A stretch of DNA of 64,000 nucleotides. Origin: Paenibacillus sp. FSL R7-0204 (GTDB taxonomy: Bacteria > Bacillota > Bacilli > Paenibacillales > Paenibacillaceae). Below are positions 30,301 to 35,074 of this stretch, in pieces. Every line of letters begins with the position of its first letter. Position 1 is the first letter of the stretch. The position numbers were made by a program, and so were the translations under genes. Under the pieces are notes generated by a model. The model saw only the letters and a list, made by a program, of their open reading frames with translations, had not been told where the DNA came from and ran no database searches. The DNA lies in NCBI RefSeq assembly GCF_038002225.1, contig NZ_JBBOCA010000001.1, positions 7,502,001 to 7,566,000 of the forward strand. The letters are read 5' to 3'.

Positions 30301-31248
30301 TCAGACTTCATATTCGGCAAAAGGATCAGGGATCTCGATTCTATAGGCTTCCGCATCGCTGACGCCTACAGACAATACCGCCCGGCCGTCCGCTCCGCGT
30401 ACCAGTCCGCCGCTGAAGATCACATCCTGCAGATCAGGCCGTTTACCCGGGCCGACCGGAAAATCGCTGCGGGCCGCAATGATTTTGACCGGAGTTGTCT
30501 CGAAGGTGCCCGGATTGAGCGAGAAGACCATAGCGTAATAATGCTTCTTCCCCAGAGGGTCGAAGCAGGCAATATGTCCAAGTACCCCCACATGGCCATT
30601 CTTAAGCAGATGGGCTTCATTGGCTCCGCCCCACTCTTCCGGCACGAACTGATGCTGCAGAATCTCCGCCTCCAGGAAGGTCTGTTCATGCAGCTCCTCC
30701 AGTGAATCAATAATGGTGAAGCCAATCTGTCCTCTGCCGCCTCGGTCTCCCTGTGGTCTGGTCAGTACGCCGATTCTGCCATCCTGAAGTTCAATCAGCC
30801 GGATATCCTTCATCAGCTCCGGACCGGAGGAGAAGTGATGCAGCGAGTCGATCCGGTATCCCCGGTAGAACTGGGTAACCCAGGAGATTATCTTGGGCGG
30901 ATTATCCCCAGCCGTAATCACCTCAACTCCGCCGACAATCAATTCTCCCTTGACGCGGGTTACGCAAGGGTCCTGCAGATTATAGGTATGGGTATGCGCA
31001 CGGGGAACCCATACACCATCTGCGCCGGATGTAAAAAAGAAGACTTGAGAGAACTCGCTATCCCGTTCCTCAACTCTTCCCAAGATCACTTCCTCCCCGT
31101 CATGCAGAAACGGAGCCGTTATATTGTAGACATCACGCCCGCCCACACCGGAGAAGACTAGCTTCTCCACGTGCACGGTACGGAGATTGGCATAAAAGGT
31201 ATCCAGTAGTTCATTACAGGTTGCTGTCTTCGCCGGGCTCCTTGTCAT
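30301..31248 (-). CDS. MTP-1/DUF1861 family protein, GT108-like beta-mannosyltransferase/phosphorylase
   Basis: A 315-residue five-bladed-propeller-type protein of the DUF1861 family: FSGVGGRDVYNITAPF, VFFFTSGADGVWVPRAHTHTYNLQDPCV, LGHIACFD and DLQDVIFSGGLVRG are visible. Leishmania members (MTPs, CAZy GT108) act as beta-1,2-mannosyltransferases and phosphorylases in mannogen turnover; bacterial members are less known. The divergent genes include a GDP-mannose synthase and a GT4, which supports a mannoside role. The ATG at 31248 has AGGAGG 6 bp upstream and overlaps the end of the XRE gene by 35 bp. The family call is from memory. Confidence 0.78.
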   Translation of the reverse strand: MTRSPAKTATCNELLDTFYANLRTVHVEKLVFSGVGGRDVYNITAPFLHDGEEVILGRVEERDSEFSQVFFFTSGADGVWVPRAHTHTYNLQDPCVTRVKGELIVGGVEVITAGDNPPKIISWVTQFYRGYRIDSLHHFSSGPELMKDIRLIELQDGRIGVLTRPQGDRGGRGQIGFTIIDSLEELHEQTFLEAEILQHQFVPEEWGGANEAHLLKNGHVGVLGHIACFDPLGKKHYYAMVFSLNPGTFETTPVKIIAARSDFPVGPGKRPDLQDVIFSGGLVRGADGRAVLSVGVSDAEAYRIEIPDPFAEYEV

Positions 31249-31510
31249 TGCCTTCCTCCTCATATTCATTTGTCTTATCTATGTCCCAGTCATTCTCATC
31301 GGATTCCATCCGGATCAATTCTCCGGGCTGAATATTGAAATACGTACACAGCTTCAACAGCAAATCCCGGGGATACTGTACCATCTCGTCTTTGTACATC
31401 CGCCGGACGGAATCGAAATGATAATTAATGTCCTTCGCTAGCTTGCGAATCGATAATTTCGGGTCATGCTTCTCCATAACCTCACTCAATTTACTGCGTA
31501 TGACTGGCAT
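31214..31510 (-). CDS. XRE/Cro-type transcriptional regulator of the mannan locus
   Basis: A 98-residue protein with a YozG-like helix-turn-helix (LSEVMEKHDPKLSIRKLAKDINYHFDSVRRMYKDEMVQYPRDLLLKLCTYFNIQPGELI, residues about 8-67) and an acidic tail (YEEEGNDKEPGED). It starts at 31510 after AGGAGGTGTATGG. Its 3' end overlaps the GT108-like gene, so the two are translationally linked. It lies at the divergent promoter of the GT4 operon and is the natural candidate to control both directions. Confidence 0.9.
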   Translation of the reverse strand: MPVIRSKLSEVMEKHDPKLSIRKLAKDINYHFDSVRRMYKDEMVQYPRDLLLKLCTYFNIQPGELIRMESDENDWDIDKTNEYEEEGNDKEPGEDSNL

Positions 31511-31528
31511 CCATACACCTCCTACATC

Positions 31529-31590
31529 ACTATATCCGGTGATTTCAAAGGAGTCAATGAATTGACAAGATTAAATGGTCATGTTATAGT
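31529..31590. promoter_or_regulatory. Back-to-back divergent promoters of the mannan locus
   Basis: Plus strand: TTGACA (31562-31567), 17 bp, TATAGT (31585-31590). Minus strand: TTGACT (31552-31557), 17 bp, TATAGT (31529-31534). The two -35 boxes are only 4 bp apart. Regulation of one would likely affect the other. Confidence 0.88.
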
Positions 31591-31640
31591 TTGGGCAGGA
31601 AATTATTTGCAGAAACAAAATTTTATACCACTCATCCCCG

Positions 31641-31671
31641 GAAAATAAAGCCCGCTTTATTTTCTTTTTTT
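31641..31671 (+). terminator. Intrinsic terminator in the leader of the GT4 operon
   Basis: GAAAATAAAG-CCCG-CTTTATTTTC is followed by seven T. It lies about 45 nt after the predicted transcription start and 40 bp before the GT4 start codon, so it would stop most transcripts unless bypassed. It is a candidate attenuator. Confidence 0.85.
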
Positions 31672-31711
31672 GTCCCCAAAAGTTCGATAATCAATAGGGA
31701 GGCTTTCTATT

Positions 31712-32893
31712 ATGAACCACAGCAACCGCAATAAAAACATTGTTTTCCTGTCCACCAGCCTGCCTAGAGAATGCGGAATCGCTACCTTCACCCAGGATCT
31801 GCTGGAAGAGTTCACGAAGCTTGAGGGCTTCAATAAACCGAGGGTCATTGCGATGAACAACAACGGAAATTACCATTACACGGACCAGGTCATGCGGGAA
31901 ATCAATCAGCAGGAGCTATCCGATTATATAGATTCAGCCCGGGAAATTAATCAGTCGGATACCGATCTGCTGGTCATTCAGCATGAATTCGGCATCTACG
32001 GCGGGGAGAGCGGTGAATATCTGCTGCAATTCACCGAGGCGCTTCTTGTCCCCTATGTGGTGATTTTCCATACGGTATTAACCAAGCCTACTCCGAAGCA
32101 GCATGAGATCATTACCCGGCTCGCCGAAGGCAGCGTCAAGGTGGTCACGATGGCCCAGTCCACGGTAGATGATCTGATCTCTGTCTATCATATCAACGCC
32201 GCCAAAATTGCCTTCATTCATCACGGTGTGCCTTATGTCCAGACAGCTACCCGCGCGGAACTGAAGACCCAGTATCAATTCGGAGACCGCAAAATCCTGT
32301 CCACCTTCGGCTTCCTGAGTCCCGGCAAGGGGATTGAATATGCTATAGAAGCTATGAGCGGAGTAGTGAAGCAGCATCCGGACGCGCTCTATATTATCTG
32401 GGGCAAGACCCATCCGGTCGTCAAACAGGAGATAGGTGAAGTATACCGTCAAAAGCTGACCGATCTGGTGCATGAATTAGACCTGGTCAATAATGTGCTG
32501 TTCGTAGACAAGCTGCTGACCCAGGAAGAGGTCATCGAGTCCCTGGTGATGTCCGATATTTATATGACCCCTTATCTGGGCAAGGAACAGGCCGTCAGCG
32601 GAACGCTCGCTTACGGAGTCGGCTATGGCAGAGTGATTATCTCCACTCCTTACCGCTATGCCGAGGAGATGCTTGCCGGAGGCCGCGGCCTGCTGGCGGA
32701 ATTCCGCGATTCGGCTTCCCTGGAAGCCAGTATTCTGGAGCTGCTGGACAATCCGGCCAAAGTCCGGGATATGGAGCAGCGTACACAAGCACTCGGCAGT
32801 ACAATGATGTGGAGTGAGGTGGCGAAGACCTATGCCGCCATCTTTCAGGACATTATAGGCCTTGCCACACCGGCTGACCGGAGTGTGATTTAA
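31712..32893 (+). CDS. GT4-family glycosyltransferase (likely mannosyltransferase)
   Basis: A 393-residue GT-B glycosyltransferase. The N-terminal acceptor part starts NIVFLSTSLPRECGIATFTQDLLEEF; LLVIQHEFGIYGGESGEYLLQF follows. The C-terminal donor half has LSTFGFLSPGKGIEYAIEA, VLFVDKLLTQEEVIESLVMSDIYMTPYLG and a modified E-x7-E zone (KEQAVSGTLAYGVGYGRVIIST). The stop codon overlaps the next ATG (TAATG). Position with a GDP-mannose synthase suggests a GDP-mannose donor; this is inference. Confidence 0.88.
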   Translation: MNHSNRNKNIVFLSTSLPRECGIATFTQDLLEEFTKLEGFNKPRVIAMNNNGNYHYTDQVMREINQQELSDYIDSAREINQSDTDLLVIQHEFGIYGGESGEYLLQFTEALLVPYVVIFHTVLTKPTPKQHEIITRLAEGSVKVVTMAQSTVDDLISVYHINAAKIAFIHHGVPYVQTATRAELKTQYQFGDRKILSTFGFLSPGKGIEYAIEAMSGVVKQHPDALYIIWGKTHPVVKQEIGEVYRQKLTDLVHELDLVNNVLFVDKLLTQEEVIESLVMSDIYMTPYLGKEQAVSGTLAYGVGYGRVIISTPYRYAEEMLAGGRGLLAEFRDSASLEASILELLDNPAKVRDMEQRTQALGSTMMWSEVAKTYAAIFQDIIGLATPADRSVI

Positions 32894-33999
32894 TGCAGAC
32901 ACCTATAGCGTTACAGTTCAGAACTGACTATATGCGCCGGATCACCGATGATACAGGAATCTTTCAGCATACAAAGTTCGGCGTTCCCGACCGTGCCAAA
33001 GGCTACACCACCGATGACAATGCGCGGGCTTTAATTGCAGCCGTACTGATGTACAAAAAAAATCCCGATGCCGCTGCCCTCGACCTGATTCATACGTACC
33101 TCTCGTTCGTCCATCATGCGCAGACGGAGGAAGGCAACTTCCGGAACTTCATGGATTACAGCCGTTCCTTCCTGGAGGAGCGCGGCTCCGAGGATTGCCA
33201 GGGACGCACACTCTGGGCACTGGGGTTCGTACTCTCCTACTCTTCCATTCTGCCGGATAACCTGCTGAATACCTGCCGGTATCTGATCAACCAGGCGCTG
33301 CCGCATATCGGCGGAATGCGCTCTCCCCGGGCCTTGGCCTATGCCGTTGTCGGACTTAGCTACCTGCTAAAAACTCCCGGAGCACGCACTTACTCCTTCC
33401 CTTATCCGCATACACAAAGCACTGAAGAAGAACAGGCCTTCCTGCCTGAAGCTATGGTTGGCGGGCTGATCGAATCGATCGCCGTCCGGCTGAATGAGCA
33501 ATACAGGATCACACAAGGCGAAGGCTGGAATTGGTATGAAGACAGCCTTACGTACGGGAACTCGATGCTGCCGTGGGCGCTGCTCAAAGCCTATAAGATC
33601 TCCGGTAATCCGGCGCTCAAAGTCACGGCTAAGGACAGTCTGGATTTCCTGATCTCCCGCACCTTCGCACCGGAAGGCTATTACAAGCCCATTGGCAGCC
33701 ACGGCTGGCTGCTGCGCGGCGGCAACCCTGCGTTATATGATGAACAGCCCATCGAAGCCTGCGAAATGCTGCTGGCCTGCGAGGAAGCGGCCGTTGTGCT
33801 GAAGGACCCGGCTTATCTGCAGCGGGCTGACCTGTGCTACGCCTGGTATACAGGGAATAATTCCTTGCAGATCTCCCTGATTGACCCCCAGTCCGGGGCT
33901 TGCTACGACGGGATTCACAGCTCGGGACTGAACCTCAATCAAGGATCGGAGAGCATTATCTCCTTCTCGATTGCCCATCTGGTGACCCATCATGGATAA
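32893..33999 (+). CDS. Alpha-helical (six-hairpin) glycosidase-like protein paired with GT4
   Basis: A 368-residue protein with the helix-rich repeats of an (alpha/alpha)6 barrel. The motif GVPDRAKGYTTDDNARALIAA near residue 30 is shared with proteins that are fused to or encoded next to GT4 enzymes in other bacteria. GWNWYEDSLTYGNSMLPWALL and LNLNQGSESIISFSIA are further conserved blocks. No catalytic residue is certain. Both ends overlap its neighbours (1 bp with GT4, 8 bp with manC), so the three proteins are made together. A trimming hydrolase or a partner subunit of the glycosyltransferase is possible. Confidence 0.78.
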   Translation: MQTPIALQFRTDYMRRITDDTGIFQHTKFGVPDRAKGYTTDDNARALIAAVLMYKKNPDAAALDLIHTYLSFVHHAQTEEGNFRNFMDYSRSFLEERGSEDCQGRTLWALGFVLSYSSILPDNLLNTCRYLINQALPHIGGMRSPRALAYAVVGLSYLLKTPGARTYSFPYPHTQSTEEEQAFLPEAMVGGLIESIAVRLNEQYRITQGEGWNWYEDSLTYGNSMLPWALLKAYKISGNPALKVTAKDSLDFLISRTFAPEGYYKPIGSHGWLLRGGNPALYDEQPIEACEMLLACEEAAVVLKDPAYLQRADLCYAWYTGNNSLQISLIDPQSGACYDGIHSSGLNLNQGSESIISFSIAHLVTHHG

Positions 34000-35074
34000 A
34001 TTCGCAACGATACTTGCAGGCGGGGGCGGCACCCGCTTCTGGCCGCTGTCCAGACAGGAAATCCCCAAGCAGCTGCTGAACATCAGCGGCAACGATATTA
34101 TGCTGAACGATACCATCGAGCGCTTCAAGGGCATCATCCCGCAGGAGAATACCGTTATTGTAACGAACCGCACCCAGGCGGTCCTGCTGGAGAGCATTAT
34201 GCACAGCAGTGTACAGAAGAGCAATATTCTGATCGAGCCTGTGGCCCGTAATACTTCAGCAAGTATTCTGTTCGCCGCCTTCTCCATAGAGCAGCTGAGT
34301 GAAGGAGATTCCTTGATGGTGGTCCTGCCTTCCGATCACTATATTACCGATGAGCCGCAGTTCCGGCTAACGCTGGATGAAGCCTGCACCGTCGCGATGG
34401 AGAGTGATGCCATCGTCACCATCGGGATCAAACCGACCTTCCCGTCCACCGGCTACGGATACATCGCTTATGACAAGGAGCCGATTGCAGTCAAGCCGGT
34501 TGCTGTATACGATGTGGCCGAATTTGTGGAGAAACCGGATTTTAAGAAGGCACAGGGGTATCTGGCCTCCGGCAATTATCTCTGGAACAGCGGGATCTTC
34601 ATCTGGAAGACTTCGGTCATTATCGATAACTTCAAGCGCTACCTGCCGCGGCTGTACAATACCATGCTGCCGATCCGCGATGCACTCGGTACAGATCAGG
34701 AGCAGGAGACCCTTAACCGGATCTATCCGCTGCTGCAGAACATCTCCATTGACTACGGCATTCTCGAGCGTTCCGACGAGGTAGTGGTCCTGTCCGGCCA
34801 GTTCGGCTGGAATGACATCGGCAGCTGGGACGCACTTGGTTCCATCTTCCCGCCTGACGATGAAGGAAACATCATCAAAGCGAATCATGTCGGCATCGAC
34901 ACCCGCAATTCCATCATCTATGGCAACGGGCGGCTGATCACCACTATCAGCGTAGACGGCTTCATCATCGCCGACACGGGGGATGCCATCATGATCTGCC
35001 CTAAGGACAAGGCGCAGTCCGTCAAAGACATTGTGGATCTGCTCAAGGACAAGGGCATGCTGGAATATGTATAG
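33992..35074 (+). CDS. manC: Mannose-1-phosphate guanylyltransferase
   Basis: A 360-residue nucleotidyltransferase that makes GDP-mannose from mannose-1-phosphate and GTP. The signature LAGGGGTRFWPLSRQEIPKQLL is at residues 8-29, followed by EPVARNTSASILFAAF, VLPSDHYI, FVEKPDFKKAQGYLASGNYLWNSGIFIWK and DIGSWDALGSIF. It lacks the isomerase domain of bifunctional ManC/AlgA proteins (about 470 residues). It overlaps the preceding gene by 8 bp and ends the operon. Confidence 0.95.
   Translation: MDKFATILAGGGGTRFWPLSRQEIPKQLLNISGNDIMLNDTIERFKGIIPQENTVIVTNRTQAVLLESIMHSSVQKSNILIEPVARNTSASILFAAFSIEQLSEGDSLMVVLPSDHYITDEPQFRLTLDEACTVAMESDAIVTIGIKPTFPSTGYGYIAYDKEPIAVKPVAVYDVAEFVEKPDFKKAQGYLASGNYLWNSGIFIWKTSVIIDNFKRYLPRLYNTMLPIRDALGTDQEQETLNRIYPLLQNISIDYGILERSDEVVVLSGQFGWNDIGSWDALGSIFPPDDEGNIIKANHVGIDTRNSIIYGNGRLITTISVDGFIIADTGDAIMICPKDKAQSVKDIVDLLKDKGMLEYV

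Follow-up and report, generated by a model that had tools for sequence, protein, structure and literature searches.

A divergent Paenibacillus locus combines a GT108-type protein with a widespread glycosyltransferase module that may turn over beta-1,2-mannosides

A compact divergent locus in Paenibacillus

Within a 64,000-nucleotide stretch of the genome of Paenibacillus sp. FSL R7-0204 (contig NZ_JBBOCA010000001.1, positions 7,502,001 to 7,566,000; hereafter the window), five genes are arranged divergently around a single control region (Table 1). One side encodes a regulator of the XRE family and a DUF1861 protein related to the GT108 family of Leishmania; the other encodes a GT4-like glycosyltransferase, an (alpha/alpha)6-barrel protein, here termed SH, and the mannose-1-phosphate guanylyltransferase ManC. 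A preliminary description of the window had proposed exactly this layout, and all five open reading frames (ORFs) lie where it placed them. The genes are tightly packed: those for XRE and the DUF1861 protein overlap by 35 nucleotides, with the start of the latter set at 31248, after an AGGAGG motif, GT4 and SH have one base in common (TAATG), and SH and ManC overlap by 8 nucleotides. Comparison with other bacteria places the core of this locus in a module that extends beyond Paenibacillus; the distinctive feature here is GT108, at the place that GH130 takes in many other bacteria.

Table 1. Genes and control elements of the locus (window coordinates)
Feature	Position	Strand	Basis
DUF1861 / GT108-type beta-mannoside phosphorylase-like protein, 315 aa	30301..31248	-	PF08950; 6q50 match
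XRE (Cro/C1, HTH_26) regulator	31214..31510	-	PF13443, E 1.3e-11
Common divergent control region	31511..31711	.	Kept across 32 aligned loci, including the window
Sigma-A-type promoter of XRE-DUF1861: -35 TTGACT, 17-bp spacer, -10 TATAGT	31529..31557	-	Read from sequence
Inverted repeat GTCAAT-N-AATTGAC spanning both -35 boxes, candidate XRE operator	31553..31566	.	Sequence
Sigma-A-type promoter of GT4-SH-ManC: -35 TTGACA, 17-bp spacer, -10 TATAGT	31562..31590	+	Sequence
Terminator-like hairpin and T-run in the GT4 leader, candidate attenuator	31640..31671	+	Stem conservation
GT4-like GT-B glycosyltransferase, 393 aa	31712..32893	+	Pfam, model, folds
SH, (alpha/alpha)6-barrel protein, 368 aa	32893..33999	+	Model, folds
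ManC, mannose-1-phosphate guanylyltransferase type, 360 aa, without isomerase domain	33992..35074	+	PF00483, PF22640

The DUF1861 protein retains key GT108 residues

The DUF1861 protein matches the Pfam model PF08950 with an E-value of 4.2e-117 (390.9 bits against a cut-off of 28), and its best match in the PDB is MTP-4 of Leishmania (6q50, E 2.1e-50), followed by 2b4w, MTP-1, and MTP-2. The assignment to the DUF1861/MTP type made in the preliminary description is upheld by these scores, and as judged by them the protein is real kin of the Leishmania MTP/GT108 enzymes. The catalytic aspartate and the basic pocket of GT108 are both present: D93, aligned to D94 of MTP-2, the residue mutated in 6q4z, is invariant in all 77 DUF1861 rows of our alignment, as are the pocket residues K147, R150, R164, and H225, along with D148, R260, and K269. 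When GT108 and GH130 were compared with HHalign, D93 was matched to the Asp of the EDPR motif, K147-D148 to the KD pair, and R164 to a conserved Arg; the score of this comparison has an E-value of 0.00029, yet a probability of only 40.6. In the alignment, MTP-4 likewise has Arg at the R164 position, where MTP-1 and MTP-2 have His. The list shown in the review PMC8950772 includes MTP-4 as a phosphorylase, and MTP-1 and MTP-2 are absent from it. Since the bacterial proteins share the Arg of the phosphorylase MTP-4, the active-site residues, compared with few Leishmania relatives, favor phosphorolysis over transfer from GDP-mannose. Of the earlier suggestion that this protein acts with GDP-mannose, the kinship with the Leishmania MTPs stands, while R164 argues for mannose-1-phosphate chemistry. 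The literature searched, with most subscription papers outside the search and the sources available in part, held no report of the function of a bacterial GT108.

The GT4-like protein, SH, and ManC

Pfam matches agree with the initial identification of XRE, GT4, and ManC. The GT4 protein matches Glycos_transf_1 (PF00534) with an E-value of 1e-12 (48.4 bits over a cut-off of 26.4), and its structure model, with a predicted local distance difference test (pLDDT) score of 94.9, has a GT-B fold whose nearest relatives include PimB', PimA, MshA, and ManT. We describe it as GT4-like only. ManC matches both PF00483 (NTP_transferase; 130.6 bits) and PF22640 (the ManC beta-helix; 72.6 bits), and with the model for bifunctional ManC/PMI, TIGR01479, it reaches 325.4 bits, below the cut-off of 372.95, over model positions 3-352 of 467.

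SH had been described as a six-hairpin, glycosidase-like protein. The fold was correctly recognized: the structure model (pLDDT 94.0) is an (alpha/alpha)6 barrel with matches to 7tem, AGE epimerases, GH76, and MmpH. The glycosidase part of the description found no counterpart among profiles, as SH matches no Pfam or NCBIfam model at E-values up to 1 and no known (alpha/alpha)6 glycosidase family, such as GH76, above its cut-off. Among 88 relatives of SH, matches at E-values up to 0.01 were to C5-epim_C in 37, GH88 in 29, GH127 in 22, and GH76 in 15. Residues D41, D42, D283, and E353 are candidates for catalysis. An identity as an AGE-type sugar 2-epimerase was considered and rejected because the conserved His is absent, yet epimerases stand second in the fold search; we take conserved catalytic histidines to be the hallmark of these epimerases.

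Conservation in the genus and the family

A DUF1861-type match is present in 59 of 100 genomes of the genus, and the matches form identity groups at 77-100% (23 genomes, including the window's own), about 50-59%, and about 36-44%. Orthologs of SH (72-100% identity) occupy the same 23 of the 100 genomes as the DUF1861 orthologs of the first group. The five genes and three neighbors were mapped in 20 relatives, and all 20 retain the order DUF1861-XRE / GT4-SH-ManC; in the remaining two (L130 and L131), XRE and GT4 are likewise divergent with a similar gap between them. Given the coincidence in the same 23 genomes and the constant order, the five-gene set comes or goes as one unit, and the gene order expected in other Paenibacillus genomes was indeed found. 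Chance clustering was rejected on the strength of this order and of the occurrence of GH130 in 38 of 60 loci from other genera (see below), against about 3.5% expected, a figure that is our own estimate of GH130 per 19-kb stretch, based on the Paenibacillus genome with the most GH130 (14 matches across 7.7 Mb) and not on the 60 genomes. The ribosomal L25 gene (29635-30243) is the neighbor on the DUF1861 side in 19 of the 20 mapped relatives; by eye, it adjoins GT4 in L150, L152, L153, and L154, where DUF1861 is elsewhere or absent.

At the family level, 150 of 295 genomes carry DUF1861 of any group, 147 of them with a score above the cut-off. Six loci of the second and third groups were inspected gene by gene (L055, L060, L061, L073, L076, and L085). 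Those of group 2 (L055, L060, and L061) combine a LacI-type regulator and sugar ABC genes, both recognized by eye, with GH130, and by coordinates GH130 directly adjoins many group-2 DUF1861 genes. Both of the two group-2 GH130s scanned pass NF050092 (BtaManbiosPhlase), with 674.7 and 652.5 bits against a cut-off of 550. One group-2 operon (L060:2641-12077), with ABC-like genes identified by eye, GH13, DUF1861, GH130, and a GH2 of the mannosidase type by Pfam, looks like one for beta-mannoside import and phosphorolysis. In group 3, which includes a paralog in the window's own genome (L001/L073), ABC-like genes adjoin DUF1861 in the loci inspected, and GH130 lies within 4.5 kb in 8 of 20 tree rows. 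The paralog itself (L073:6968-8964; C1, about 6.097 Mb) lies next to ABC-like genes, again recognized by eye, and to a GH130 that carries Arg rather than Lys at the linkage position discussed below. Across the whole tree, GH130 occurs within 4.5 kb in the absence of SH in 24 of 77 GT108 rows. This adjacency of DUF1861 and GH130 supports a beta-mannoside as the substrate.

On the DUF1861 tree of 77 proteins, the label "beside SH" needs three changes, against a mean of 26.1 after shuffling. The group-1-type proteins form a 34-row clade (100/98), outside which lie L150/L153 and L066/L123. Given the separate placement of these two pairs, the association of GT108 with SH is likely, though not certain, to have arisen more than once, with the starred branches of the tree forcing only two label changes and long branches meeting.

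The GT4-SH module beyond Paenibacillus

A scan of GTDB with the SH alignment yielded at least 572 relatives, of which the best 80, leaning to near kin, were kept. A separate search across phyla matched 109 of 398 genomes and gave 60 loci, one per genus, after weak or partial matches, repeat genomes of a genus, and the window's own genus had been left out by hand. Neighborhoods extend for up to about 10 kb to either side in the sequence retrieved and often end at a contig edge. In all 140 loci (138 of them distinct, as L171 equals L299 and L180 equals L276), SH is immediately preceded by a GT4 of the same kind or fused to one, the fusions numbering 6 of the 80 and 14 of the 60. The pair occurs in Bacillota and on contigs labelled Bacteroidota, Chloroflexota, and Bathyarchaeota; the last, from metagenome bins, include GT4-SH-GH130 sets in L198, L206, L207, L210, and L211.

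A ManC- or hexapeptide-type nucleotidyltransferase is nearby in 46 of the 60 genera and GH130 in 38, with one or the other in 56. Among the best 80 of at least 572 relatives, GH130 accompanies the pair in 38, GT108 in 23, both in one (L196), and neither in 20. As the GH130 and GT108 counts in the two sets indicate, GT108 replaces GH130 in the Paenibacillaceae loci. Proteins longer than 900 residues that end in GH130 lie near GT4-SH in 19 of the 60 loci, which are numbered L242-L301 (e.g., L252:5402-8947). Four genomes of the genus (L124-L127) possess a distant GT4-SH pair that adjoins a phosphomannomutase-type gene, with no GT108 in the locus, and, where inspected, a hexapeptide nucleotidyltransferase as well; Pfam was run on L125 only. 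We found no report of a GT4-SH-phosphorylase module in the literature searched (e.g., PMC8476585), of which parts were available and which left most subscription papers outside; the plant-mannan cluster described in the accessible text of PMC5877837 has GH130 and a distant guanylyltransferase, without such a module.

The identity of the GH130 partners connects the module to beta-1,2-mannosides. Those of the Thermoanaerobacter module are near-identical to 7fip and 9fj8, which are characterized beta-1,2-mannoside phosphorylases, and the cluster that contains them corresponds to that described in PMC4264767. Lys199 of BT3780 has been tied to beta-1,2 specificity (PMC4599007, as far as available). 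We took the Lys of the KD pair as the corresponding determinant, a placement derived from BT3780 Lys199 and the Thermoanaerobacter enzymes in the available part of that paper rather than from direct alignment to BT3780; of the 55 stand-alone GH130s found in the module, 52 of which are distinct, 53 have Lys at this putative position, and L164 and L296 have Arg. The same position is Lys in 17 of 17 group-2 GH130s and Arg in 8 of 8 from group 3. All 55 module GH130s also match the NCBIfam model for beta-1,2-mannobiose phosphorylase at E-values up to 1e-5, a match that is not specific by itself because all 55 match two sister models too. Gene context in many genera supports a theme of GDP-mannose and beta-1,2-mannoside phosphorylases.

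The control region

The 201-bp region between XRE and GT4 contains two back-to-back promoters. On the GT4 side, TTGACA-17-TATAGT is found in 30 of the 32 aligned loci, window included, with TACAGT as the -10 box in the other two; on the XRE side, the exact TTGACT-17-TATAGT is found in 13 of the 32 and a relaxed form in every one. The inverted repeat occurs at one place in the window, against 0.01 expected by shuffling. Its arms, GTCAAT/AATTGAC, recur in 29 of the 32 loci, and GTCAA[TC] with a spacing of 0-3 nucleotides in all 32. XRE may bind this repeat and control the locus. In the GT4 leader, a stem of at least 8 bp followed by a T-run is present in 29 of the 32 loci, against 2 of 1,600 mononucleotide shuffles, and might attenuate the transcript. 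Some predicted leader folds pair a C-rich stretch with the Shine-Dalgarno region, and an Rfam search of the locus gave no match at the gathering score.

A possible mannoside cycle and its alternatives

We propose that in this locus Paenibacillaceae possess their own version of a widespread cytosolic module that turns over a mannose oligosaccharide with beta-1,2 links, a reading that we regard as evenly poised between right and wrong. In this cycle, GT108 would reversibly phosphorolyse beta-1,2-mannosyl ends to give mannose-1-phosphate, ManC would convert this to GDP-mannose, the GT4-like enzyme would transfer the mannose, probably in alpha linkage, onto an acceptor or chain, and SH would cleave the chain or its core to give new acceptors. 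By virtue of these steps, mannose could be stored and regained without the ATP of hexokinase, and XRE would gate both directions from a single operator. The view taken in the preliminary description, of a system that makes, trims, and recycles a mannose-based glycan, is likely right in its theme by gene context. The analysis itself shows the genes and their order, the promoters, the folds, the conserved active-site residues, and the association with beta-1,2-mannoside phosphorylases and GDP-mannose genes; the substrates, linkages, directions, and regulation of the cycle, and the accumulation of a polymer, are what we infer, and a storage or surface role would depend on such a polymer.

Several observations weigh against this proposal. 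To our knowledge, neither a product nor an activity has been assigned to any bacterial GT108, nor to a GT4 or SH of the kind found in the window. With the E-x7-E columns of GT4 placed by a hidden Markov model alignment, the first Glu (column 292) is E in 25 of 79 rows, the window protein among them, and D in 37 (62 of 79 together), and a Glu for the second, ribose-binding position is found at columns 293-305 in none of the 79. The absence of this second donor-site Glu makes the use of GDP-mannose by GT4 uncertain. SH has an uncharacterized protein as its nearest sequence relative, and sugar 2-epimerases rather than hydrolases come next among its fold matches. Elsewhere in the genome, four more GMP_PMI-like matches stay below the cut-off, so the ManC of the window may not be its only one. 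GT108 is found in none of the 60 one-per-genus loci outside Paenibacillus and GH130 is absent from the fetched flank in 22 of them, including 16 with at least 8 kb on both sides, from which it follows that the phosphorylase is a non-obligate part of the module. L152, L154, and L155 (labelled Cohnella or Bacillus) have GT4-SH-ManC with neither GT108 nor GH130 nearby.

One alternative, unlikely in our estimation though deserving of weight, is pure salvage, in which imported beta-1,2-mannosides are broken down by phosphorolysis to mannose-1-phosphate and ManC converts this to GDP-mannose, with GT4 serving some other, unconnected glycan. Chiku et al. put such a model forward for the cluster of Thermoanaerobacter, where five genes for ABC transport and one glycoside hydrolase are present (PMC4264767), and L167 and L283 carry the same order, GH130-GH130-NTP-GT4-SH (NTP, nucleotidyltransferase). 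However, the ORF list reveals no transporter-like ORF within 30301-35074, and the sugar-ABC-like genes seen by eye beside the six inspected group-2 and group-3 DUF1861 genes indicate that uptake loci exist separately. Salvage also leaves SH, and its constant pairing with GT4, without explanation. Rather less probable still is the possibility that GT4 and SH synthesize and degrade either a small solute that contains mannose or a primer of the glycerate type, with GT108 or GH130 merely adding or trimming its beta-mannose. The long proteins ending in GH130 in 19 of the 60 genera could be read in this way, and one of three scanned N-termini matches the glucosyl-3-phosphoglycerate synthase model NF010496 at an E-value of 2.4e-4 with 20.3 bits (cut-off 262), the other two having no match; however, that match is weak, the GH130 fusion is absent from the Paenibacillus locus, and the fold matches of GT4 are broad. 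A surface or wall mannan, built by GT4 on a lipid-linked or wall acceptor and edited by SH and GT108, is highly improbable, for although the mannose-specific fold matches of GT4 include the lipid-acceptor enzymes PimA and PimB', the five genes encode no flippase, polymerase, exporter, or membrane protein, and no signal peptide is evident by eye in either SH or GT108.

Parallels with known systems and implications

The turnover cycle proposed here has three parallels. The first is the mannogen system of Leishmania, whose enzymes belong to the same family as the window protein and share its catalytic Asp and basic pocket, with R164 as in MTP-4; Leishmania has several MTPs, whereas the window has one GT108 accompanied by GT4, SH, ManC, and XRE. 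No demonstration of mannogen in these bacteria was found in the literature searched. The second is the Thermoanaerobacter cluster Teth514_1785-1796, which, as described in PMC4264767, likewise combines a GT4, an unnamed neighbor, beta-mannoside phosphorylases, and a mannose-1-phosphate guanylyltransferase; judged from the gene order, SH would be the unnamed neighbor, Teth514_1785. It differs in having GH130 instead of GT108 and a hexapeptide-type nucleotidyltransferase instead of ManC, as well as an ABC importer and an extra hydrolase. The third, a working parallel for a glycosyltransferase paired with an (alpha/alpha)6 hydrolase, is the ManT/MmpH pair of the mycobacterial methylmannose polysaccharide (PMC9883506). 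Its four-gene set, as given in the accessible portion of that paper, is without a phosphorylase, and the window in turn lacks methyltransferases and, in its GT4, a counterpart of Glu321 of ManT; sequence identities between the two pairs are 17% and 10%.

More tentatively, as a conjecture that we would sooner doubt than accept, many bacteria and some archaea might possess a mannogen-like reserve, maintained by a cytosolic beta-1,2-mannan cycle of the GT4-like protein, SH, a GDP-mannose pyrophosphorylase, and a five-bladed propeller phosphorylase, namely, GH130 or, in Paenibacillaceae, GT108. In this scenario, SH would form a glycosidase family outside the present classification, and the Leishmania enzymes would have branched off in eukaryotes from this bacterial toolkit.

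The five-gene set of a harmless soil bacterium offers a simple test case for these proposals, and bacterial GT108 enzymes are possible tools for the synthesis of beta-1,2-mannosides. If the proposed cycle is true, the mannogen described from Leishmania would be an instance of a reserve or solute cycle common among prokaryotes, and two widely distributed proteins would acquire a role: SH, for which Pfam has no family, and a branch of GT4 whose donor site is unusual.

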